DNA from: Nocardiopsis terrae
Lineage (GTDB): Bacteria > Actinomycetota > Actinomycetes > Streptosporangiales > Streptosporangiaceae
DNA: 64,000 bases
Assembly: GCF_014651695.1 (NCBI RefSeq)
Contig: NZ_BMXJ01000006.1
Location: 546,935 to 610,934 of the forward strand
Direction of reading: 5' to 3'
Shown one piece after another: positions 42,237-52,764 of the stretch (positions are counted from its first letter, which is position 1; every line of letters begins with the position of its first letter). A program made the translations under genes and the position numbers. Under the pieces are notes generated by a model that did no database searches, was not told the origin of the DNA, and saw only the letters and a list, made by a program, of their open reading frames with translations.

Positions 42237-42342
42237 CACCGGCGGGCGTCGGGAAGCCGGTCGCGGGTTCTCCCCGTTCTCCGGTGCCGGCACCGCCTCC
42301 CGTGGCAGAATCGGTGACCTGTCATGGTTTGGGGAGGGCCGG

Positions 42343-43266
42343 ATGGGTGTACTGGCTGATGAGCTGCGGCGGCTCCAGGCGAGGAGGGGCATCCGGGGGG
42401 ACCACCCCGAACGCCTCGTGGGTCCGCACCTGGCCCGAATGGTGGGGCTGACCGGGGCGGAGAGCCCGACCGAGGTACGCCGCATGGTCATCGCCACGCT
42501 GCGGGAACTCTCCCGGGACCTTCCCCAGGACCTGCGGCTGGCCTTCCTCGCCGGTCTGGGCGTGCACCCCGACGCCGACGCCCCCGTCCTCGGCCGGCGG
42601 CTGGAGTGGGTGGCGCGCGAACTGTACACCTCTGCCCGTACGGCCCGGCGCTACCTCGACCAGGCAGTGGAACACGTGGAGTCCGAGGCCGTAACCCCCG
42701 TTCCTGGGCCGGGATACGTCCCCCCGGGCTGGTGGCTGGCCGGACTGCGCACCACGCTCCGCCTGGGTGCGCACGGTGTCGAGTCGTTCGAGGAACGCGA
42801 GATCGTCGCGACCGTGGACGACCTGGAGCAGGTGGTGGTCTCGGCGCATCTGCCCCGAGCCGAACCCGGAGACGAGACCCCGCAGGAACTGGAGCTGGAG
42901 CTCGTGTCCGGCGCGTGCTCGGTGACACGGGAGCGCCCCACGCCGACCTACTTCCGGCACCACGTGCGGCTCCCCAGACCGTTGGCCCTGGGGGAGCGGC
43001 ATGTCTTCACCGTGAGCCTGCGCGTACCGTCCCAGCAGGGTTTCACGCCGCGGTACGTCTTCCGACCCCTGCGCCGCTGTGACCGCTTCAGCCTGGTGGT
43101 CCGCTTCACCGACCAGCCGCCCCCGCGAGCCTGGCGGGTGCCCGGGGTACCGCACGGGGCCGTGGACGACCTGCCCCGCGACCCCCTGGTTCCGATCGAC
43201 GGCGGTTACTCCACCGATTTCACCGCCCTGCGCCCAGGGCTCGCCTACGGCCTCCGCTGGGGCTGA
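42343..43266 (+). CDS. Hypothetical protein (helical N-domain, beta-rich C-domain)
   Basis: 307 residues, not recognised. The ATG at 42343 follows GGGGAGGGCCGG. Residues 1-100 are helical and end in ELYTSARTARRYLDQAVEHV, a pattern seen before regulatory or sensor parts in several actinobacterial proteins; residues of about 115-300 are beta-rich with alternating hydrophobic strands. There is no membrane helix or signal peptide. It converges with the FHA gene, with only 8 bases between the stops and no terminator. It may be separate from the chaperone run on the other strand. Confidence 0.55.
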   Translation: MGVLADELRRLQARRGIRGDHPERLVGPHLARMVGLTGAESPTEVRRMVIATLRELSRDLPQDLRLAFLAGLGVHPDADAPVLGRRLEWVARELYTSARTARRYLDQAVEHVESEAVTPVPGPGYVPPGWWLAGLRTTLRLGAHGVESFEEREIVATVDDLEQVVVSAHLPRAEPGDETPQELELELVSGACSVTRERPTPTYFRHHVRLPRPLALGERHVFTVSLRVPSQQGFTPRYVFRPLRRCDRFSLVVRFTDQPPPRAWRVPGVPHGAVDDLPRDPLVPIDGGYSTDFTALRPGLAYGLRWG

Positions 43267-43274
43267 CCGCCTGC

Positions 43275-44084
43275 TCAGGCATCCCACCACAGCTCTGCTT
43301 GGGCCGCCAACCACTCCTCGTCCTCCAGCAACCGCAGGTGCGCCGGGGTCAGGACCCGGAGGGCGATCAGATGGTGGGCCAGCCGTTCCCTCGTGACCCG
43401 GGTGCCCTGCTCCAGCGCCCCGGAGTCCACCAGTTTCCATTTGAGGTGGCGCAGGTGCTCTTCCACCCGCCGGGTGATCCTGGCCCGTACGTCGGCCTGG
43501 CCGGCGTCGAACCGGTTCAGCTGGTCCCAGGTGTGGGTGGCGGCCAGGGCCTCCCGGGCCACGGAAACCGAGGTGGGCAGGGCCCGGGAACGGGTGGGGT
43601 CGCCCAGCCAGTCCCGGCACAGCATGAGTGCGGTGACGAACTCCTTGGTGTGCGGGCCCAGGCGCATACGGGTGGCGGTCTCGGTCTCCTCCGCCACGTC
43701 CGGCAGCCGCGGTGGCCCTGCCACCGCGCCGCTGTCCACGTGCACTTCGATCATCGATCCGCCGCCGTGCATGTGGGGGGAACCCACCCGGGCCCGCCCG
43801 GTCGTCACCAACAGCACCCCGTGGTCCCGGGCCCCACTCGGCGGAAGCTGGCTCACCTGGCCGTCCACCACCGCGATCAGACCGTGTTTGCGGCTGAGGT
43901 TGTTGATCCGCGCCCCGTCCGTGGAAACGGTGATCTGCCCGGCCAGCCGGGACAGTCCGGGGTCGCCGAGCACCACGAGGTCGGCGTGGCGGCTGCGCCC
44001 GAAGACCAGGCAGGCGCCGGAGGGCACGGAGTGTTCAGCGCCGTCCGGCCCGATGACCTGGACGCAGGGGTGTTCTCGCGTCAT
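43275..44084 (-). CDS. FHA-domain protein
   Basis: 269 residues. The N-terminal FHA domain, a phosphothreonine-binding module, spans about 8-95: ACLVFGRSRHADLVVLGDPGLSRLAGQITV carries the Gly-Arg and Ser-Arg contacts, with the usual His replaced. The C-terminal half is helical and Arg-rich, without a known domain. It is the last gene of the minus-strand run with the Ser/Thr kinase, so it plausibly reads that kinase's phosphorylation marks. The ATG at 44084 has GGAGAAG upstream. Confidence 0.85.
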   Translation of the reverse strand: MTREHPCVQVIGPDGAEHSVPSGACLVFGRSRHADLVVLGDPGLSRLAGQITVSTDGARINNLSRKHGLIAVVDGQVSQLPPSGARDHGVLLVTTGRARVGSPHMHGGGSMIEVHVDSGAVAGPPRLPDVAEETETATRMRLGPHTKEFVTALMLCRDWLGDPTRSRALPTSVSVAREALAATHTWDQLNRFDAGQADVRARITRRVEEHLRHLKWKLVDSGALEQGTRVTRERLAHHLIALRVLTPAHLRLLEDEEWLAAQAELWWDA

Positions 44085-44185
44085 GGGCCGTTCTTCTCCA
44101 TTGGGTCGTTCCCTTCGCCCGGGGGCGGCCCCGCCCGTGGGGCAGGGCCGCCGACATGTTCTGCTCCTTCGACGAAACGGGTGAC

Positions 44186-44335
44186 TCAGCCCTTCCAGTG
44201 GCCCCCGTGTACCGGGCAGACCCGGCCGGTGTTGTCACACTTGGAACAGGTCAGCCTGTTCCCGAAATCGCTGGCACGACCGCCGTTGCATCCGCTGCAG
44301 TCGTGTGTCGGGCGGTTGCACTTTCGGCATTCCAT
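44186..44335 (-). CDS. 49-residue stand-alone DnaJ-type zinc-finger protein
   Basis: A gene too short for most finders, starting at the ATG at 44335 and ending at 44186. Paired cysteines: Cys3/Cys6 (MECRKCN), Cys13/Cys16 (CSGCNGG), Cys30/Cys33 (CSKCDNTG) and Cys40/His43 (CPVHGG). The second and third copies follow the CxxCxGxG layout of the DnaJ cysteine-rich domain, so it probably binds two zinc ions. It lies 58 bases behind the kinase gene and 101 before the FHA gene on the same strand. Since the same run encodes J-like proteins without a zinc finger, this may be the missing part as a separate chain. Confidence 0.7.
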   Translation of the reverse strand: MECRKCNRPTHDCSGCNGGRASDFGNRLTCSKCDNTGRVCPVHGGHWKG

Positions 44336-44393
44336 GGTGTTTCTCCCTACTTTCGTGGCACCGTGCCCTTCACGGTGCTCTTCTTCGGAGTGG

Positions 44394-46049
44394 TCAGGTC
44401 TGTCGCGGTGTCGAACGCATCGGTGCGCCGGGCCGACCGCCCAGCAGCGCCGCCCACACCAACAGCGCCGCGGCCAGCAGGCCCAGGAACGCGCCGCCCC
44501 ACATCACCCACTGCTCCCAGCCGCCGCCGAAGGTCGCCAGCGCCGAGTACAGGGACCGCGGTGCCCACAGTTCCGGCAGGGGTAGGCCGGGCAGGGACAG
44601 CACCGCGACCAGGGCCGCGGCCGTCGGCACCGCCCAACGCACCAGATGTGCCCTGAGCAGGCCGACGGCCACGCACACGGCCATCAGCGGCAGGTACAGA
44701 TCGGCCGAGCGGGCCGCCGCGTCGGCACCGATGGCGGTCCCCGCCGCCGCGGCGTCCGCGGTGTAGGGGGTCTGCGCCGCCTGCGCCACCATGCCCACCG
44801 CCAGCGACCACAGGTGCAGCAGCGGAAGGCACGCCGCCACCGCCACCGTCTGCCGCCAACGGGGTGGATCCGTCCGCAGTCGGGCCCAGACCCTCGGTTC
44901 GGAGGGTTCCGGTGCCCGTGTTCGTTCCGGTGCCCTGGGCCGGTCCGGTAGCCGGACGCGCTGCGGCGCGGGCGGCCGTCTCGATGGCACCGGCCTCGGG
45001 GCGCGCGAGCCCGGGACACGGACCCGCTGCGGCGGACCCGCCTTCCCGGGGCGCTCCCGGTCCGGGGACGCCCCCCGCGCCGGGAGCGCAGGGGAGGGCC
45101 GATCCGGTACCGTCTGCCCTCGCCCGCCGCTCTTTCCGGGAATGCTCCAGGTGCGGGCGAGAAGCCGGTCGGTACGGTCGCGGTGGCTCTCCCCACCGTC
45201 CGCTGTGGCGGTGTCCGAGTCCAGCGTGTCGGCCAGGGCGGCGAACACTTCCCCGGCGCTCGGGCGCGCCCGGTGGTCGGGGGCCAGGGACGCCCGCACC
45301 AGCGGCAGGAGCGGCTCGGGTACCCCGTCCAGGTCGGCCCTTCCCCGTGCGGCCCGCTCCCTGCGCGCCATCTCCTCACCGGTGCCGAAAGCGGGCCGCC
45401 CGGTCGCCGCGAACGCCACCACGGCCCCCCAGGCGAACACGTCCGCCTCAGGTCCCTCGTGCCCCGAGAACCGCTCCGGGCTGACATAGCCCGGTGTGCC
45501 GTAGACCGCCCCCGTCCGGGTGGTCGACGCGGCGTCACAGGCTCGGGCGATCCCGAAGTCCAGCACACAGGGGCCCTGCGGGCCCAGCAACACGTTGCCG
45601 GGTTTGAGGTCCCGGTGTACGACCCCGACCCGGTGGATCGCCACCAGGGCCTCGGCCGTCCCCAGACCGAAGGCCAGCAGCGCCGCTCCGGCGAAGGGCC
45701 TTCCCCTCCGTACCAGCGCGGACAGGGTCGGTCCCGGCACGTACTCCATGGCCATCCACGGCCGGGTGTCGTTGAGCCCGACGTCGCGGATGGCGGGCGT
45801 ACACCTGGCCCGGATCCGCTGCGCCAAGGCGACCTCACGGGCGAAACGGGCGCGAAAGTCCGGATCGGAGGCGTAGCCGGGCTTGACCACCTTGACCGCG
45901 ACGAGCGCCCCCCTGGGGGTGCGGGCCAGGAACACCGCCCCCATGCCGCCGCTGCCGATCCGGCCCAGCAGCACGTGTCCGCCCAGCACCCGGGGGTCCA
46001 GGGGGTTGAGCGGTTCGAGGGGCGGCACGGCCCAGGTGCGACGGTTCAC
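44394..46049 (-). CDS. Membrane Ser/Thr protein kinase (catalytically intact)
   Basis: 551 residues. The kinase domain (about 27-280) has the glycine loop GRIGSGGMGAVF, Lys53, HRDLKPGN (145-152) and DFG (164-166), so activity is expected. A long Pro/Arg-rich linker (about 300-395) leads to four predicted transmembrane helices (about 401-422, 450-468, 473-490, 514-537); there is no PASTA or other known sensor. The GTG start overlaps the stop of the GrpE-like gene (GTGA), implying coupled translation with the chaperone genes. Confidence 0.9.
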   Translation of the reverse strand: MNRRTWAVPPLEPLNPLDPRVLGGHVLLGRIGSGGMGAVFLARTPRGALVAVKVVKPGYASDPDFRARFAREVALAQRIRARCTPAIRDVGLNDTRPWMAMEYVPGPTLSALVRRGRPFAGAALLAFGLGTAEALVAIHRVGVVHRDLKPGNVLLGPQGPCVLDFGIARACDAASTTRTGAVYGTPGYVSPERFSGHEGPEADVFAWGAVVAFAATGRPAFGTGEEMARRERAARGRADLDGVPEPLLPLVRASLAPDHRARPSAGEVFAALADTLDSDTATADGGESHRDRTDRLLARTWSIPGKSGGRGQTVPDRPSPALPARGASPDRERPGKAGPPQRVRVPGSRAPRPVPSRRPPAPQRVRLPDRPRAPERTRAPEPSEPRVWARLRTDPPRWRQTVAVAACLPLLHLWSLAVGMVAQAAQTPYTADAAAAGTAIGADAAARSADLYLPLMAVCVAVGLLRAHLVRWAVPTAAALVAVLSLPGLPLPELWAPRSLYSALATFGGGWEQWVMWGGAFLGLLAAALLVWAALLGGRPGAPMRSTPRQT

Positions 46050-46606
46050 GGGGCGGGGTGCTCCGTGCCCTCGGCGGCGACGGAGGCGACCACCCGGACC
46101 GGGCGCAGCAGCCGGGACCGGTACTGGAATCCGCGCCGGAGCACGGCGTGGACCCGTAGCGAACCGTGTGCGGCTCTGGCTCCGTGCAGGTGCACCATGT
46201 CGTGCAGGTGCGGATCGAACGGATCGTCCACCCGCGCCCGGACCTGTTCCACCCCGTGCTGCTCCAACAGCGAGACCAGCTCGGACCCCAGGCTGCGCAC
46301 GAACGCCAGGTGCTGCTCGCCGGGGCTCCCCGGCGGGTGCCCGGCCTCCGCCTCGGTGAAGGCGCGGGCGTCGATGCGGTCGATGATCCTGGCGGCACCG
46401 ATCACGAAGGGGGTCAGGTACTCCTGGACCACACCGTCCTCGGCGGCGCGGAGCCGGTCGCTCAGGTCCTCGATCAGGTGGCGTTTGTCCCGGTCCTCGG
46501 ACAGCCGCCGGACGAAGAGGTCCTGGAGCTGTCCCAGCCTGGTGAGGGCCTCCTGACAGGGGTCGGTTTCCGTCTCGGGCGGTGCCACGGGCTCGTCGGG
46601 GTTCAA
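46046..46606 (-). CDS. GrpE-like nucleotide exchange factor
   Basis: 186 residues. A helical N-terminal half (LGQLQDLFVRRLSEDRDKRHLIEDL) precedes the GrpE-type beta domain, recognisable by GVEQVRARVDDPFDPHLHDMV and VLRRGFQYRSRLLRPVRVVAS, which align with the GrpE C-terminus. It would release ADP from the neighbouring Hsp70. The start appears to be TTG at 46606, overlapping the hsp70 stop (TTGA), and the stop overlaps the kinase start. It is distinct from the housekeeping grpE, which normally lies with dnaK and dnaJ. Confidence 0.8.
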   Translation of the reverse strand: MNPDEPVAPPETETDPCQEALTRLGQLQDLFVRRLSEDRDKRHLIEDLSDRLRAAEDGVVQEYLTPFVIGAARIIDRIDARAFTEAEAGHPPGSPGEQHLAFVRSLGSELVSLLEQHGVEQVRARVDDPFDPHLHDMVHLHGARAAHGSLRVHAVLRRGFQYRSRLLRPVRVVASVAAEGTEHPAP

Positions 46607-48150
46607 CGCACGGTCCTTCGCTGGAGGTCGGTGGAGAGGCGCTCGACCTCTTCCGGGCCGAGATTGTTGGCGCGTTCGATCTCGATGTCCCCGAGGGAGC
46701 GTCCGTTGCGGCCGTCCGTCGCGGTGACGTGCACGATTGCGTCCACGTCGTAGGAGATGGTCACCCGGATCGGTGACTCCTTGGGGTAGGGGGCGGCGGG
46801 CAGCGGGATGGGTACGCCCTGCTGGTCCTCGGTGATGACGGTGACCCGTTCGGGATCGGTGTGGTCGCCCACGGTGATCCGCATCAGGGCTGTCCGCTGG
46901 TCCTCGACCACGGTGTAGAACTCCTGGTGGGCCTGGGCCGGGACCTTGCTGCCGCCCGCGATGATGACGTTGTTGACGTCCGAGGTCTGGTCGCCGTTGA
47001 GGGAGATCACGCCCAGGCCGTGCGCGGTGATGTCGCTGACCGACCGGGTGCCGATCGTGGACTCGCGGTCGTCCGCTTCGGCGTCGAGGAGTTCGGCCTG
47101 CGCGGCGGCGCCCATCGCCACCGCCTCGTCCGGGTGCAGCCGCTGGTTCGGGGTCCTGCCGGTGATCTCGGCGACCAGCTCCCGAACCGCCGGGATACGG
47201 GTGGACCCGCCCACCAGCAGGACCTCGTCCAGGTTTTCGTTGGTGATCCCGGCTTTCTCCTCGGACCGGCGCAGTGCCTCCCGGGTCAGGACCCGGGTGC
47301 GCTGCAGCAGGTCGTGGATGAGGTCCCGGAACTCGGCACGGCTGATGCTCAGCTCACCGACCTCGGTGAAGATCGAGGCCGTCTCGGTGGTGCTCAGCCG
47401 GTGTTTGGCGGATTCACACTGCTCACGCAGCCGTCCCCGGGCACCCGGGTCGCCGCTGTCGTCGATGTCGGTGCCGCCGCGCTCCACCACCCTCGAATTC
47501 GCCCAGCTCTCCAGCCGGTCGTCGAAGTCGGCCCCGCCGAGCTGGGCGTCACCGGCGGTGGCGACCACGTCGAAGTCTCCGCTCCCGATGCGCAGCACGG
47601 TCACGTCGAAGGTGCCCCCGCCCAGGTCGTAGACGAGGATGTTCCCGGCGTCGCGTTCGCGCAGACCGTAGGCCAGGGCCGCCGCGGTGGGCTCACTGAG
47701 TATGCGTTCGACCTCCAGCCCGGCGATCTTCCCGGCGTCCCTGGTGGCCTGCCGCCGAGCTTCGTCGAAGTAGGCGGGCACGGTGATCACCGCCCGGGTG
47801 ACGGGTGACCCCAGCGCGACGGAGGCGTCGTCGCAGACCTTGCGAAGGATGAACGCCGAGACCTGTTCCGCGGTGTGGCGTTTCCCGTCGCTGGTCACCC
47901 GCTGCCATTCGGGGTCGCCCATGTGCGGTTTGACCCTCTCGATCACGTCGGTGTCGCTCACCAGGCGCTGGTGGCGTGCGGGGGTGCCCACGATCGCCTC
48001 GCCGTTGGTCAGGTAGACCGCGGACGGTGTGGTGTTGGCGCCTTCGCTGTTGCGCAGGATCTCGGGGCGGCCGGTCTCGTCGATGACGGCCACGGCCGTG
48101 TTCGTGGTCCCCAGGTCGATACCGACGACGGGGCTTCTGGGTTCTGTCAC
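46603..48150 (-). CDS. Short Hsp70-family chaperone (DnaK-like, no full lid)
   Basis: 515 residues from the GTG at 48150 (AGAAAGGA upstream). The nucleotide-binding domain is complete: VVGIDLGTTNTAVAV, VITVPAYFDEARRQATRDAG, ILVYDLGGGTFDVTVL, VLLVGGSTRIPAVRELV. A beta-type substrate-binding region follows (about 375-485; LGVISLNGDQTSDVNNVII). Compared with E. coli DnaK (638 residues) most of the helical lid is missing, so it may bind clients loosely or act as a switch rather than a folding chaperone. Its neighbours, two J-like proteins and a GrpE-like protein, complete a dedicated cycle. Confidence 0.88.
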   Translation of the reverse strand: MTEPRSPVVGIDLGTTNTAVAVIDETGRPEILRNSEGANTTPSAVYLTNGEAIVGTPARHQRLVSDTDVIERVKPHMGDPEWQRVTSDGKRHTAEQVSAFILRKVCDDASVALGSPVTRAVITVPAYFDEARRQATRDAGKIAGLEVERILSEPTAAALAYGLRERDAGNILVYDLGGGTFDVTVLRIGSGDFDVVATAGDAQLGGADFDDRLESWANSRVVERGGTDIDDSGDPGARGRLREQCESAKHRLSTTETASIFTEVGELSISRAEFRDLIHDLLQRTRVLTREALRRSEEKAGITNENLDEVLLVGGSTRIPAVRELVAEITGRTPNQRLHPDEAVAMGAAAQAELLDAEADDRESTIGTRSVSDITAHGLGVISLNGDQTSDVNNVIIAGGSKVPAQAHQEFYTVVEDQRTALMRITVGDHTDPERVTVITEDQQGVPIPLPAAPYPKESPIRVTISYDVDAIVHVTATDGRNGRSLGDIEIERANNLGPEEVERLSTDLQRRTVR

Positions 48151-48195
48151 TGGTGGTGTGTCCTTTCTGTGAAGTCCTGTCCGCTCCGCACCGGA

Positions 48196-49422
48196 CTAGT
48201 GGAGATCCGCGTGGGGCTCGTGGCTTCCGGAGATGAAACGGGGCGAGTCGCGGTGACGGTGGTTGTCCTCCCACCCGTACGGTCGGCACCGGGAGAAGGC
48301 CAGGCAGAGAGCTCCCACCCCGGCGAAGACCATGAGCAGGCCGGCCCCGCCGCTGGACGAGAACATGGCGAGTCCGAGCAGGGGCATGACCACGCCGCTG
48401 CCCCACACGGACGCCGAAAGGGCCTCGTTCCGGTACAGACGGCTGGTGAGACGGGGCTCCCGCGCCTGTGTGACGGCCTCCGCCAGGTTCAGGCAGGCCG
48501 CGCGTACCTCCCGGTCCTGCGGTTGAAGACCTCTGGCTTCCAGGAGGAGGGCGTGCATACGGGTCACCTCCTCCTGCGAGGTGATGAGATAGTGCTCGCC
48601 CTGCTGGACCTCGGGACACCTCTCGGCCTGTTCGACCAGGGCCGCCGCGAGCGCATCGCGTACCTCGAGTGCGCCTGGCCAGCGGCGACGGAGCTCACGC
48701 AGGTTCCGCACCGCGCTGCTGGGCCGCCCGCTCAGGCGGTTGAGCGAGGCCAGGAGCAGCCCGGACTCGGGCGTGGTGTCGAGCTCCGCGGCCCTTTCCA
48801 CCATGGGCGCCGCCAGATCCAGGTCGCCGATGTCCGCGAGCCAGTATCCGACCGAGAGGAGCCACGGCAACTCGTCCGGACGAAGCGACACGGCTCTGGT
48901 GCCCGCACGCCGCGCCCCCTCGACGTCCTTCAGCCTCAGACACGAACGGAAGAGCAGGAACCAGGCATCGGCCCGCCCGGGATCCCGCTGGACGGCCCGG
49001 GCCGCCAGGTGCCTGGCCCCGAAGTAGTCCCCGCAGTCGAGCCTCTCGGAGATCTGGGTCAGGGGGTCCTCCGCCGCGTCAGCGGTGCCCGGGGTGGTTC
49101 TGCCCCGGGCGGGCTGCCCGGGGACGTCCTGCTCGTAGCCGGAAGGTGCGGTTGTGCTCTCTCTGGCCTGTTGGGCGTGCGTGGTGTCGTAGGCGGCGCG
49201 TCGTCGCGGGTCGAGGAGGGTCTTCTCGGCTCGGGCGGCGAGTTCGAGCATGTCCTCGGCTCGGCGGCGCAGGTTTTTCTTGTTGGAGCCGGTGAACTGC
49301 TGCCATTCCAGGATGAGGGCGTCGAGCCTGTCGCGGATGGTTGCGGTGTCGGCGTCGGGAGCGGTGTCGAGGAGCGCGTAGTAGTCGACGAAACCCGGGG
49401 TGTGCACGGTGGGGGCTGCCAT
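48196..49422 (-). CDS. J-like/TPR protein with C-terminal membrane hairpin (paralogue 1)
   Basis: 408 residues from the ATG at 49422 (GGAGAC upstream). Residues 11-79 are J-like: FVDYYALLDTAPDADTATIR opens the domain and EKTLLDPRRRAAYD closes it, but the His-Pro-Asp loop is absent (EWQQFTGSNKK lies there). About 105-330 is TPR-like (AVQRDPGRADAWFLLFRSCL). Two transmembrane helices at about 341-378 precede a CRPYGWE motif, so both ends face the cytoplasm. The DNA for the J-like domain is almost identical to that of the next gene, the rest is not. It lies 45 bases before the Hsp70 start. Confidence 0.78.
   Translation of the reverse strand: MAAPTVHTPGFVDYYALLDTAPDADTATIRDRLDALILEWQQFTGSNKKNLRRRAEDMLELAARAEKTLLDPRRRAAYDTTHAQQARESTTAPSGYEQDVPGQPARGRTTPGTADAAEDPLTQISERLDCGDYFGARHLAARAVQRDPGRADAWFLLFRSCLRLKDVEGARRAGTRAVSLRPDELPWLLSVGYWLADIGDLDLAAPMVERAAELDTTPESGLLLASLNRLSGRPSSAVRNLRELRRRWPGALEVRDALAAALVEQAERCPEVQQGEHYLITSQEEVTRMHALLLEARGLQPQDREVRAACLNLAEAVTQAREPRLTSRLYRNEALSASVWGSGVVMPLLGLAMFSSSGGAGLLMVFAGVGALCLAFSRCRPYGWEDNHRHRDSPRFISGSHEPHADLH
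49149..49392 (-). repeat. 244-bp direct repeat, copy A (J-like domain coding DNA)
   Basis: Matches 50378-50621 at an offset of 1229 bases; I count two mismatches, both near one end, by direct reading. It covers the J-like domain and the following AQQA-ESTT segment of the gene at 48196-49422. Confidence 0.92.
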
Positions 49423-49448
49423 GGTGTCTCCGTTCGCGACAGGCGTGG

Positions 49449-50651
49449 TCAGAGCCGGGACCGCAGATCCTCGGCGGCGCGCAGTTCGCTGTACTTCTCG
49501 TCCTTGGTGCGGGCGTTCAGTTCCCAGCGGGGAGGGCGGCACTGGGCAGGGATCACGGTTACTGCGGCTAGCCCGACGAAGAACGGGAGGAGCCCGACGG
49601 GTAGACCGTTGGCGAGCAGAATGACGCCGAGGAGCAGGCCGATGGGGGCAGACCACCAGATGAGGGTGGAGGCTCCTTCGTTCGCGAACAGACGGAAGGT
49701 GAAGACGGTCTCCTTGGATTTGTCCAGGTGGCTGACCGTGTTGTTGAGTGCCCGGCGCACCTCCTTGTTCTGCGGCCCCAGTTTCTTGGCCTCCTGAATC
49801 AGCCCTTCCATGAGCTCGATCTCGCTCTCGTCGGTGATGATGTACATCTCCCCGGCTCGGATTCGGGGTACATCCTCGGCTGAGCCCAGGAGCGTCAGGG
49901 CTAGCTCCTCCTTCACGTCCGTGTCCTCGGGGAAGCGCTTACGGAGGTCGCGCATGGTCTGGAGAGCCTTCTCCTGTAGGCCGCGACTGCGCTGGTGCCT
50001 GGCGAGGTGGCAGCCGGCCTCTGGGGTGGTGTCGTGCCGGACCGCGTTCTCCAAGAGTGCGAAACCGCGTTCGGTCTCTCCCAGGGCTTCCACGAGAAAG
50101 CCGCCGACGTGGGAGGACCAGAGCGGGTTGGCCGGTCCCAAACGCACCGCGGTGGTTCCGGCGATCTCGGCCCCGTCCAGATCGCCCAGGCTCAGACAGG
50201 CCGCGAAGAGGATGAACCACGCCTCACCCAGGTCGGGGTCCTGTTCGACGGCACGGTTGGCGAAGAACCGGGCCGCCTTGTGGTCCCCGCCGAAGAAGGC
50301 GTCCTTGGCGCGGTCCAGGCTTTCCCGTCCCGGGTTGGCACCTCCCCGTTCACCGCTCCGCTCGCCACCGGGTGTGCCGGTTGTGCTCTCCTTGGCCTGT
50401 TGGGCGTGCGTGGTGTCGTAGGCGGCGCGTCGTCGCGGGTCGAGGAGGGTCTTCTCGGCTCGGGCGGCGAGTTCGAGCATGTCCTCGGCTCGGCGGCGCA
50501 GGTTTTTCTTGTTGGAGCCGGTGAACTGCTGCCATTCCAGGATGAGGGCGTCGAGCCTGTCGCGGATGGTTGCGGTGTCGGCGTCGGGAGCGGTGTCGAG
50601 GAGCGCGTAGTAGTCGACGAAGTCCGAGCCGTCGGTTCGGGGGGCGGGCAC
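49449..50651 (-). CDS. J-like/TPR protein with C-terminal membrane hairpin (paralogue 2)
   Basis: 400 residues from the GTG at 50651 (AGGAG upstream). Same plan as its neighbour: J-like domain 11-79 without HPD, TPR-like helices (RFFANRAVEQDPDLGEAWFI, LDGAEIAGTTAVRLGPANPL) to about 320, two transmembrane helices at about 330-368 and a CRPPRWE motif, then a charged tail. Outside the J-like domain it is clearly diverged from paralogue 1. The gap to paralogue 1 is 26 bases, so they are co-transcribed. It may select different clients through its TPR part. Confidence 0.78.
   Translation of the reverse strand: MPAPRTDGSDFVDYYALLDTAPDADTATIRDRLDALILEWQQFTGSNKKNLRRRAEDMLELAARAEKTLLDPRRRAAYDTTHAQQAKESTTGTPGGERSGERGGANPGRESLDRAKDAFFGGDHKAARFFANRAVEQDPDLGEAWFILFAACLSLGDLDGAEIAGTTAVRLGPANPLWSSHVGGFLVEALGETERGFALLENAVRHDTTPEAGCHLARHQRSRGLQEKALQTMRDLRKRFPEDTDVKEELALTLLGSAEDVPRIRAGEMYIITDESEIELMEGLIQEAKKLGPQNKEVRRALNNTVSHLDKSKETVFTFRLFANEGASTLIWWSAPIGLLLGVILLANGLPVGLLPFFVGLAAVTVIPAQCRPPRWELNARTKDEKYSELRAAEDLRSRL
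50378..50621 (-). repeat. 244-bp direct repeat, copy B (J-like domain coding DNA)
   Basis: Second copy of the repeat at 49149-49392, in the gene at 49449-50651. The near-identity stops at the domain edges, while the surrounding coding sequence differs strongly. Confidence 0.92.
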
Positions 50652-50682
50652 GATGGATCTCCTGGACGGTGTCGGTCGCGGG

Positions 50683-51144
50683 TCAGACCGGAATGTTCTG
50701 GTTGGCGTGCCGTTTCAGCTCGCGTCGCGCCTTGCGCCACCTGCGGCGGATGTAGACGGCGGGCATGGCACCGAACCGGAACCTGCCGTAGACGGTGAAC
50801 ACCTCCATCTGGATCTCCGCCTCCACCGGCTCGTGCTCGGGGTAGTCACCAGCGGGGAAGTAGGGCACGTCGACGCTGATGACGTCGTTGTCCGAGCTCA
50901 GCAGTTGGCCGTGGTAGCCGATGACGTCGCCGTTGCTGTCGGTGACCGTCTCGATCACTGGCCGCCATCGGATCATCCCGCCGCGGGCGGCGGCCTGCAT
51001 GGCCTGGGGCAGCCACTCGGCGGGTTCGCTCAGTTGGCCGCTCAACGGCACCCTGTGCACGCCTTTCTCCCAGCGCGCCAGGGCGAAACCGCCGACGACG
51101 GCCAGGGTGACGAAGAGAAGGAAGAGTGTGAATGCTGTTCCCAA
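50683..51144 (-). CDS. N-terminally anchored hypothetical protein
   Basis: 153 residues; the start appears to be TTG at 51144, six bases behind AAGGAG. One transmembrane helix (4-24: AFTLFLLFVTLAVVGGFALA) precedes a soluble domain that is beta-rich (IRWRPVIETVTDSNGDVIGY ... VEAEIQMEVFTVYGRFRF) and ends basic (IRRRWRKARRELKRH). No family is recognised. It is the first gene of the minus-strand chaperone run, 31 bases before paralogue 2. Confidence 0.6.
   Translation of the reverse strand: MGTAFTLFLLFVTLAVVGGFALARWEKGVHRVPLSGQLSEPAEWLPQAMQAAARGGMIRWRPVIETVTDSNGDVIGYHGQLLSSDNDVISVDVPYFPAGDYPEHEPVEAEIQMEVFTVYGRFRFGAMPAVYIRRRWRKARRELKRHANQNIPV

Positions 51145-52764
<1,620 letters not shown>

Follow-up and report, generated by a model that had tools for sequence, protein, structure and literature searches.

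An optional nine-gene cassette in Nocardiopsis terrae that may build a membrane-tethered Hsp70 control unit with an exchangeable output

We analyzed a 64,000-nucleotide stretch of the Nocardiopsis terrae genome (contig NZ_BMXJ01000006.1, positions 546,935 to 610,934), referred to here as the window, and concentrated on a block of chaperone and kinase genes that sits between a DAAO-like gene and argC. A sequence-only reading of the window had described this block as an operon of eight closely spaced genes on one strand, and eight open reading frames are indeed present at 43275-51144, all on the minus strand and tightly packed. The overlaps it reported between hsp70 and the grpE-like gene (46603-46606) and between the grpE-like gene and the kinase gene (46046-46049) are exactly four bases each. 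The extent, however, was one gene short: g9, which is convergent with the eight-gene run, has the same orientation and position in both other Nocardiopsis copies (L040 and L041; 57 and 56% identity) and is part of the same cassette. In window coordinates, the features are as follows.

42343..43266, plus strand: g9, a 307-amino-acid protein with a candidate helix-turn-helix in its N-terminal half, an unassigned C-terminal half, and no Pfam family
43275..44084, minus strand: g8, an FHA-fold protein with a helical C-terminal domain
44186..44335, minus strand: g7, a 49-amino-acid Cys/His mini-protein, probably zinc-binding (CxxC..CxxC..CxxC..CxxH)
44394..46049, minus strand: g6, a membrane Ser/Thr kinase with intact catalytic motifs and a C-terminal membrane region
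46046..46606, minus strand: g5, a GrpE-like exchange factor with a TTG start and a four-base overlap on either side
46603..48150, minus strand: g4, a lidless Hsp70 of 515 amino acids, in which the linker VSDITAHGLG replaces the DnaK VLLLDVTPLSLG
48196..49422, minus strand: g3, the second J-like/TPR protein, with C-terminal membrane segment(s); its start is most likely at 49422
49449..50651, minus strand: g2, the first J-like/TPR protein, with a C-terminal membrane hairpin
50683..51144, minus strand: g1, a small N-terminally anchored protein of 153 amino acids, of no known family
50393..50621, minus strand: first copy of a 229-bp tract, over the J-like domain of g2 (longest common substring)
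49164..49392, minus strand: second copy of the 229-bp tract, over the J-like domain of g3 (longest common substring)
42237..51670, no strand: approximate extent of the optional cassette, from the DAAO-like stop to the conserved TTGCATAAACTTGCA site (51674) before argC

The center of the cassette encodes a chaperone trio of J-like/TPR (J-TPR) proteins, Hsp70, and GrpE. Profile searches upheld the short Hsp70 and the GrpE-like protein of the earlier reading: both exceed the Pfam cut-offs, g4 matching PF00012 (E = 7e-121) and g5 matching PF01025 (E = 2e-10) at positions 95-162 of 165, so that the C-terminal beta domain is kept. The GrpE-like family profile also matches the GrpE of PDB 4ani (E = 3.2e-17). 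Alignment of the Hsp70s from J-TPR loci showed that they stop before the lid and have an altered linker. In a 29-sequence FastTree phylogeny, these Hsp70s form a clade (support 0.916) that includes two Actinopolymorpha Hsp70s without a J-TPR neighbor; the kinase-linked Hsp70s make up a subclade (support 1.0). A separate clade, also with support 1.0, comprises the Hsp70s from five GAP1-N2 loci.

The two J-TPR proteins had been described as J-like/TPR proteins with C-terminal membrane hairpins. Both have TPRs above the Pfam cut-off and a C-terminal membrane segment or hairpin by hydropathy, but the J-like part is less secure, as their DnaJ matches lie below the cut-off (E = 0.001 for g2 and 0.0015 for g3) and neither has an HPD motif. 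Across the family, PF00226 is matched at E ≤ 0.1 by 12 of 13 members (best 2e-8), and HPD is absent from all 20 J-TPR sequences checked (13 aligned and 7 further), some of which have NPD, SPD, or APD. With HPD missing, the membrane-bound Hsp70 cycle put forward earlier cannot be taken for granted in its usual J-driven form. An AlphaFold2 model of g2 (pLDDT 89.4) contains J-type helices, a TPR array, and two long C-terminal helices; a PDB search with this model was dominated by TPR proteins and is no test of the J fold. The 229-bp tract is identical in g2 and g3, which elsewhere share 43-75% identity per 20-codon block, and an identical tract in otherwise divergent paralogues points to recent gene conversion. 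Two related J-TPR proteins of Nocardiopsis valliformis, compared as protein matches with gene context outside the comparison, are not identical over the tract region.

The output side of the cassette consists of the kinase and the FHA protein. The four-helix membrane Ser/Thr kinase of the earlier reading was borne out: g6 matches PF00069 above the Pfam cut-off (E = 1.3e-31), contains GxGxxGxV, VK, HRDLKPGN, and DFG, and has three to four transmembrane segments in its tail by hydropathy. For g8, Pfam calls no FHA domain, returning only Yop-YscD_cpl below the cut-off (E = 0.0015), yet the predicted structure lets us assign a clear FHA fold, a beta-sandwich at residues 2-120, with confidence, in line with the original assignment. 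The fold search was filled by these residues and barely covered the C-terminal part; Pfam gave no support for DNA binding by the C-terminal domain, and such a role would be a guess. Arg30, Ser45, and Arg46 are invariant in 22 of 22 FHA-protein sequences. Between the two genes lies g7, which had been called a DnaJ-type zinc-finger mini-protein. Its CxxC/CxxC/CxxC/CxxH pattern is common to four loci, but no Pfam model exceeds the cut-off, and the DnaJ likeness is best treated as a resemblance.

Among the outer genes, g1 has the single N-terminal transmembrane segment expected of an anchored protein (residues 4-22 by hydropathy), and the remainder would probably be cytoplasmic. Its identity to the L040 and L041 copies is 51 and 44%, and it has no match in Pfam, PADLOC, or NCBIfam. 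A few relatives of g9 give weak, sub-threshold helix-turn-helix/sigma-4 matches in Pfam. A promoter scan found no promoter-like site, a terminator scan found 3 terminator-like sites versus 3.2 expected from shuffles, and no tRNA lies within the 64-kb window.

The nine genes behave as one unit, since the site between the DAAO-like gene and argC is empty in 28 of the 30 genus loci read. These were the 30 with loci among 39 ArgC matches, the window's own included and G023 left out; the occupied two are the window and G009, and G023 is also occupied, as seen in the separately read locus L041. At the 28 empty sites, the end of the DAAO-like match and the argC match are 76-1031 bp apart, with no cassette gene detected between them. 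Just before argC, at window positions 51674-51688, lies a TTGCATAAACTTGCA site that resembles an arginine-repressor operator, with similar sites in nine empty spacers. Because this TTGCATAAA-type site is kept in the window and in all nine empty spacers compared, we place the cassette at ~42237-51670. In two further Nocardiopsis, this site is also occupied by the cassette, in a form that has a single J-TPR gene instead of two. The three carriers are not grouped in a single-gene ArgC tree, a scatter consistent with either repeated loss or exchange at a fixed position; a single short gene is too little to tell these apart.

The two further Nocardiopsis carriers, together with the J-TPR pair of N. 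valliformis, rule out a strain-specific oddity, and chance clustering is ruled out by the gene order kept in two genera and by the empty site. A plasmid or phage home for the cassette was also rejected, the window J-TPR giving one distant plasmid match and the FHA protein none. Matches of a related plasmid Hsp70 to phages (39 records, all <60% identity) are probably ordinary DnaK-type proteins. By alignment search, with scoring limited to four candidates in each genome, J-TPR proteins occur in at least 5 of 394 genomes (at least 4 of 396 above ~80 bits, own genome included). At a looser limit, 341 of 396 genomes matched, which we read as generic TPR or J domains.

The core gene order is found again in four more genomes, a pair from Nocardiopsis and a pair from Thermobifida. 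In Thermobifida cellulosilytica and a second Thermobifida (L118), the J-TPR, Hsp70, GrpE-like, kinase, and FHA genes keep this order but lie elsewhere on the chromosome. Of these two, only L118 has the zinc protein (found in four of the five kinase-set loci overall), and g1 and g9 were found in neither. The earlier expectation of a conserved set is thus upheld in more than one genus, but not in diverse Actinobacteria, as the kinase set was seen only in Nocardiopsis and Thermobifida among the genomes searched.

FHA-kinase linkage extends further. We examined 20 FHA loci from other genera of the family, drawn from 42 genomes matched (the window's own among the 42), and found a tail-to-tail kinase without chaperones in 13, chaperones in 2, and no adjacent kinase in 5. 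Three weaker FHA matches (L138-L140) were fetched and left uncounted; L140 has a kinase just downstream of its FHA match. The 13 tail-to-tail loci support a functional FHA-kinase pair that holds on its own and to which the chaperone trio may have been added. At one locus (L133, 7209-19401), an FHA-kinase pair neighbors a Tubulin_2 gene and a weak match to DO-GTPase2, which may connect the pair with GTPase systems. At L139 (7990-12289), a GAP1-N2 locus in another genus of the family, a weak FHA-protein match adjoins an Hsp70 gene.

The chaperone trio itself is more widespread and not tied to the kinase. Profile runs over related loci yielded 16 distinct J-TPR loci, all in Actinomycetota, 15 of which have Hsp70 as a neighbor and 14 a GrpE-like gene. 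Recurrence across diverse Actinomycetota, expected earlier of the whole set, applies to the trio, and its partner is an EccC/FtsK-like ATPase at least as often as the kinase. The ATPase is found in seven loci: L042, L136 (an Actinomycetota metagenome-assembled genome), L137, L146 (Leifsonia), L147 (a Propionibacteriales metagenome-assembled genome), L187, and L188. Five loci have the kinase set, and four (L043, L044, L149, and L186) have neither; no J-TPR locus has both within the 5-20 kb read. L042, L136, and L147 are short contigs, and a partner could lie off their ends. L144, L145, and L148 duplicate L041, L116, and L136, respectively, and L150 and L151, which have Hsp70 without J-TPR, stand outside the 16. 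The chaperone trio thus stays constant across these loci and its partner changes, which gives the trio the look of a swappable control unit.

Domain searches agree with these assignments. Pfam confirmed GrpE in L043 (the weakest case), L186, and L188, and FtsK_SpoIIIE in all five ATPase loci scanned; Walker A and B motifs are present in 4 of 4 ATPases checked. The plasmid ATPase of L188 matches the EccCa model TIGR03924 with E = 3.1e-25, at 89 bits versus a cut-off of 509. A conserved helical protein of 86 amino acids occurs in three of the seven ATPase loci, with a weak WXG100 match (E = 0.3) or none. In L187, the ATPase is split over two open reading frames, and searches for Hsp70 and for GrpE both came up empty; GrpE was likewise not found in the stretch read of L147, which is a short contig. 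On a Rhodococcus pseudokoreensis plasmid (L188, 7332-14202), genes for Hsp70, J-TPR, GrpE, the EccC/FtsK-like ATPase, and the 86-residue protein lie in a row, with TniB/TniQ and recombinase genes a few kilobases away. The locus of Leifsonia sp. TF02-11 (L146, 7837-15672) combines the trio, an EccC-like ATPase, and the 86-residue protein with a next gene whose product has a papain-fold toxin 1 domain (E = 9e-13), and it is possibly a chaperone-assisted, type VII secretion-like export locus.

We propose, at a probability of roughly 45%, that the nine genes of this optional cassette build an Hsp70 control unit tethered to the membrane, whose output can be exchanged and is here a kinase with the FHA protein as its reader. 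The main reason for treating the trio as a control unit is that related loci exchange the kinase set for an EccC-like motor. In the proposed mechanism, the J-TPR proteins would gather Hsp70, along with its client proteins, on the cytoplasmic side of the membrane, GrpE would reset Hsp70, and the Hsp70/GrpE cycle would report client load. Client load would in turn alter how the Hsp70 unit holds the membrane kinase. Once active, the kinase would phosphorylate itself or other cassette proteins, and the FHA protein would bind the phospho-site and relay the signal, perhaps to DNA via its helical C-terminal domain; phosphorylation as the read-out is plausible. In the sister loci, the same trio would work with the EccC/FtsK-like ATPase, the control part constant and the output swapped.

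Several observations weigh against this proposal. We infer the contact between chaperones and kinase, and the HPD-less J-like proteins may not drive ATP hydrolysis. The window kinase lacks a middle region of ~200 amino acids found in four relatives (alignment of five). Both Thermobifida kinases (L116 and L118) have HLD for HRD, and that of L118 also has DLTP for DLKP, so their activity may differ from that of the Nocardiopsis kinases. In what we take to be the FHA phospho-site motif (Arg, Ser, His, and Asn), the usual His position is occupied by Ala in 19, Cys in 2, and Val in 1 of the 22 sequences, and the usual Asn position, placed by eye, by Thr, Lys, or Ser, with an invariant Asn62 nearby; phospho-binding may be weak or altered. 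The FHA gene is downstream of the kinase gene in the window versus convergent with it in the 13 tail-to-tail pairs, whose kinases are candidate orthologues only. In a third Thermobifida genome (L117, 9016-9840), in which only that site was examined, a lone FHA gene lies between the same neighbors; it looks like a remnant or a starting point, and because it stands alone, the FHA gene can do without the rest of the set. The full set is also rare: strong FHA matches are limited to 3 of the 40 genomes of the genus (the window's included; a fourth match is weak) and, in agreement, strong GrpE-like matches to 3 of 37, again including the window's. Membership of g1 and g9 is based on three Nocardiopsis loci, and some profiles behind the partner count over the 16 J-TPR loci were built from members of the same loci.

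Three other explanations account for parts of the evidence. The cassette could be a defense system in which the trio senses foreign or misfolded proteins that arise during infection and releases the kinase in the membrane, so that growth stops. The patchy presence at a fixed site and the separation of the carriers in the ArgC tree are in keeping with such a system, and its closest published relatives are predicted conflict systems, going by the available excerpts of PMC7159879; one related trio lies near the TniB/TniQ and recombinase genes of the Rhodococcus plasmid, and another beside the papain-fold toxin gene. The kinase also matches PADLOC models, PD-T4-6 among them (best E = 6e-54), but the matches span the kinase domain and come from 34 models, which fit ordinary kinases too, and the other eight cassette proteins have no PADLOC match. 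With no nuclease, toxin, or other killing domain recognized by Pfam in the nine proteins, and with window neighbors that look core-like by eye (the PADLOC scan covered the cassette proteins), we consider defense rather unlikely.

A role in transport or assembly, in which the trio would prevent a client from folding and pass it on to a partner in the membrane while the kinase and FHA protein only regulate delivery, draws on the sister loci, where the trio presumably does the same for the EccC-like ATPase. Their frequency (7 of 16), the Walker motifs, the EccCa match, and the 86-residue proteins, one with its toxin neighbor, all point that way, but the cassette contains no ATPase motor, pore, or recognizable cargo by Pfam and the WXG100 likeness is faint, and we regard this role as unlikely. 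Most improbable is a kinase-FHA regulator of the envelope or of gene control that happens to lie beside an accessory chaperone set: the 13 chaperone-free pairs speak for it, but the four-base overlaps joining hsp70, grpE, and kinase genes, the order kept in two genera, and the joint presence or absence of nine genes at one site speak against it. If our proposal of a membrane-tethered control unit is true, Hsp70 acts here as a dedicated signaling component and not as a general aid to folding, and the cassette is small and optional enough to be removed whole. A clean genetic test is possible because close relatives have the empty site.

We compared the cassette with known systems. It shares its three chaperone folds with DnaK-DnaJ-GrpE but differs in its lidless Hsp70 with a changed VLLLDVTPLSLG linker, its membrane-anchored J-TPR proteins without HPD, and its divergent GrpE. 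In eukaryotes, the endoplasmic reticulum stress kinases PERK and IRE1 are held by BiP, and an Hsp70 that may gate a membrane kinase would follow similar logic; no homology is claimed, and the cassette would act on the cytoplasmic rather than the lumenal side. It is conceivable, though rather doubtful, that the cassette is a convergent counterpart of these BiP-gated kinases, in which HPD-less J-TPRs keep a lidless Hsp70 at the membrane as sensor and brake of a transmembrane kinase, the gated output (kinase/FHA or EccC-like motor) being exchanged and the trio kept. The sister loci share an EccCa-like ATPase with type VII secretion (EccC, TIGR03924), but none is encoded by the nine window genes, and the one sister ATPase tested falls far below the EccCa cut-off. 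CoCoNuT Type III-A superoperons have Hsp70 units, a TerY-P kinase triad, and EssC/WXG100 extensions (PMC11090510, available excerpts). Like them, the loci studied here have Hsp70-like units and a Ser/Thr kinase and, in the sister loci, a type VII secretion-type ATPase with small helical proteins; unlike them, the window cassette gives no match to a McrB GTPase, nuclease, vWA, or phosphatase. The same excerpts predict that CoCoNuT Hsp70-like units hydrolyze ATP poorly at best, and they mention no J protein or GrpE.

No description of the exact gene set was found in the literature searched (open-licence papers), so the earlier statement that no named system has this set stands for the set itself, but related neighborhoods have been published. 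Kaur et al. 2020 (PMC7159879), in the portions available, describe actinobacterial GAP1-N2 GTPase neighborhoods with HSP70, GrpE, and DnaJ/TPR proteins, as well as neighborhoods containing kinases of membrane or zinc-ribbon type, and treat the HSP70 and kinase neighborhoods as non-overlapping themes. Going by those portions, the cassette resembles these systems in combining HSP70 and GrpE with DnaJ- or TPR-bearing partners, in zinc-ribbon or transmembrane-fused kinases, in its actinobacterial hosts, and in its nearness to the membrane. It differs in having no GTPase, GAP1, FNIII, vWA, or PP2C match among its nine proteins in Pfam (none for DO-GTPase or GAP1 at E ≤ 1); the same Pfam library found DO-GTPase and GAP1 in L045 of the same genome and GAP1-N2 in L046-L048 and L139. 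The window Hsp70 also lies outside the GAP1-N2-linked Hsp70 clade, all five loci of which encode a GAP1-N2 protein. Membership in a GAP1-N2 system is ruled out by these two differences, and the window's genome carries a separate GAP1-N2 GTPase system (L045, C2:425001-444900) with its own lidless Hsp70 and GrpE. On the published portions available, the GAP1-N2 GTPase systems are nevertheless the closest relatives of the cassette and, if our proposal is true, the predicted chaperone-centered systems of actinobacteria extend to a GTPase-free branch with exchanged output parts.

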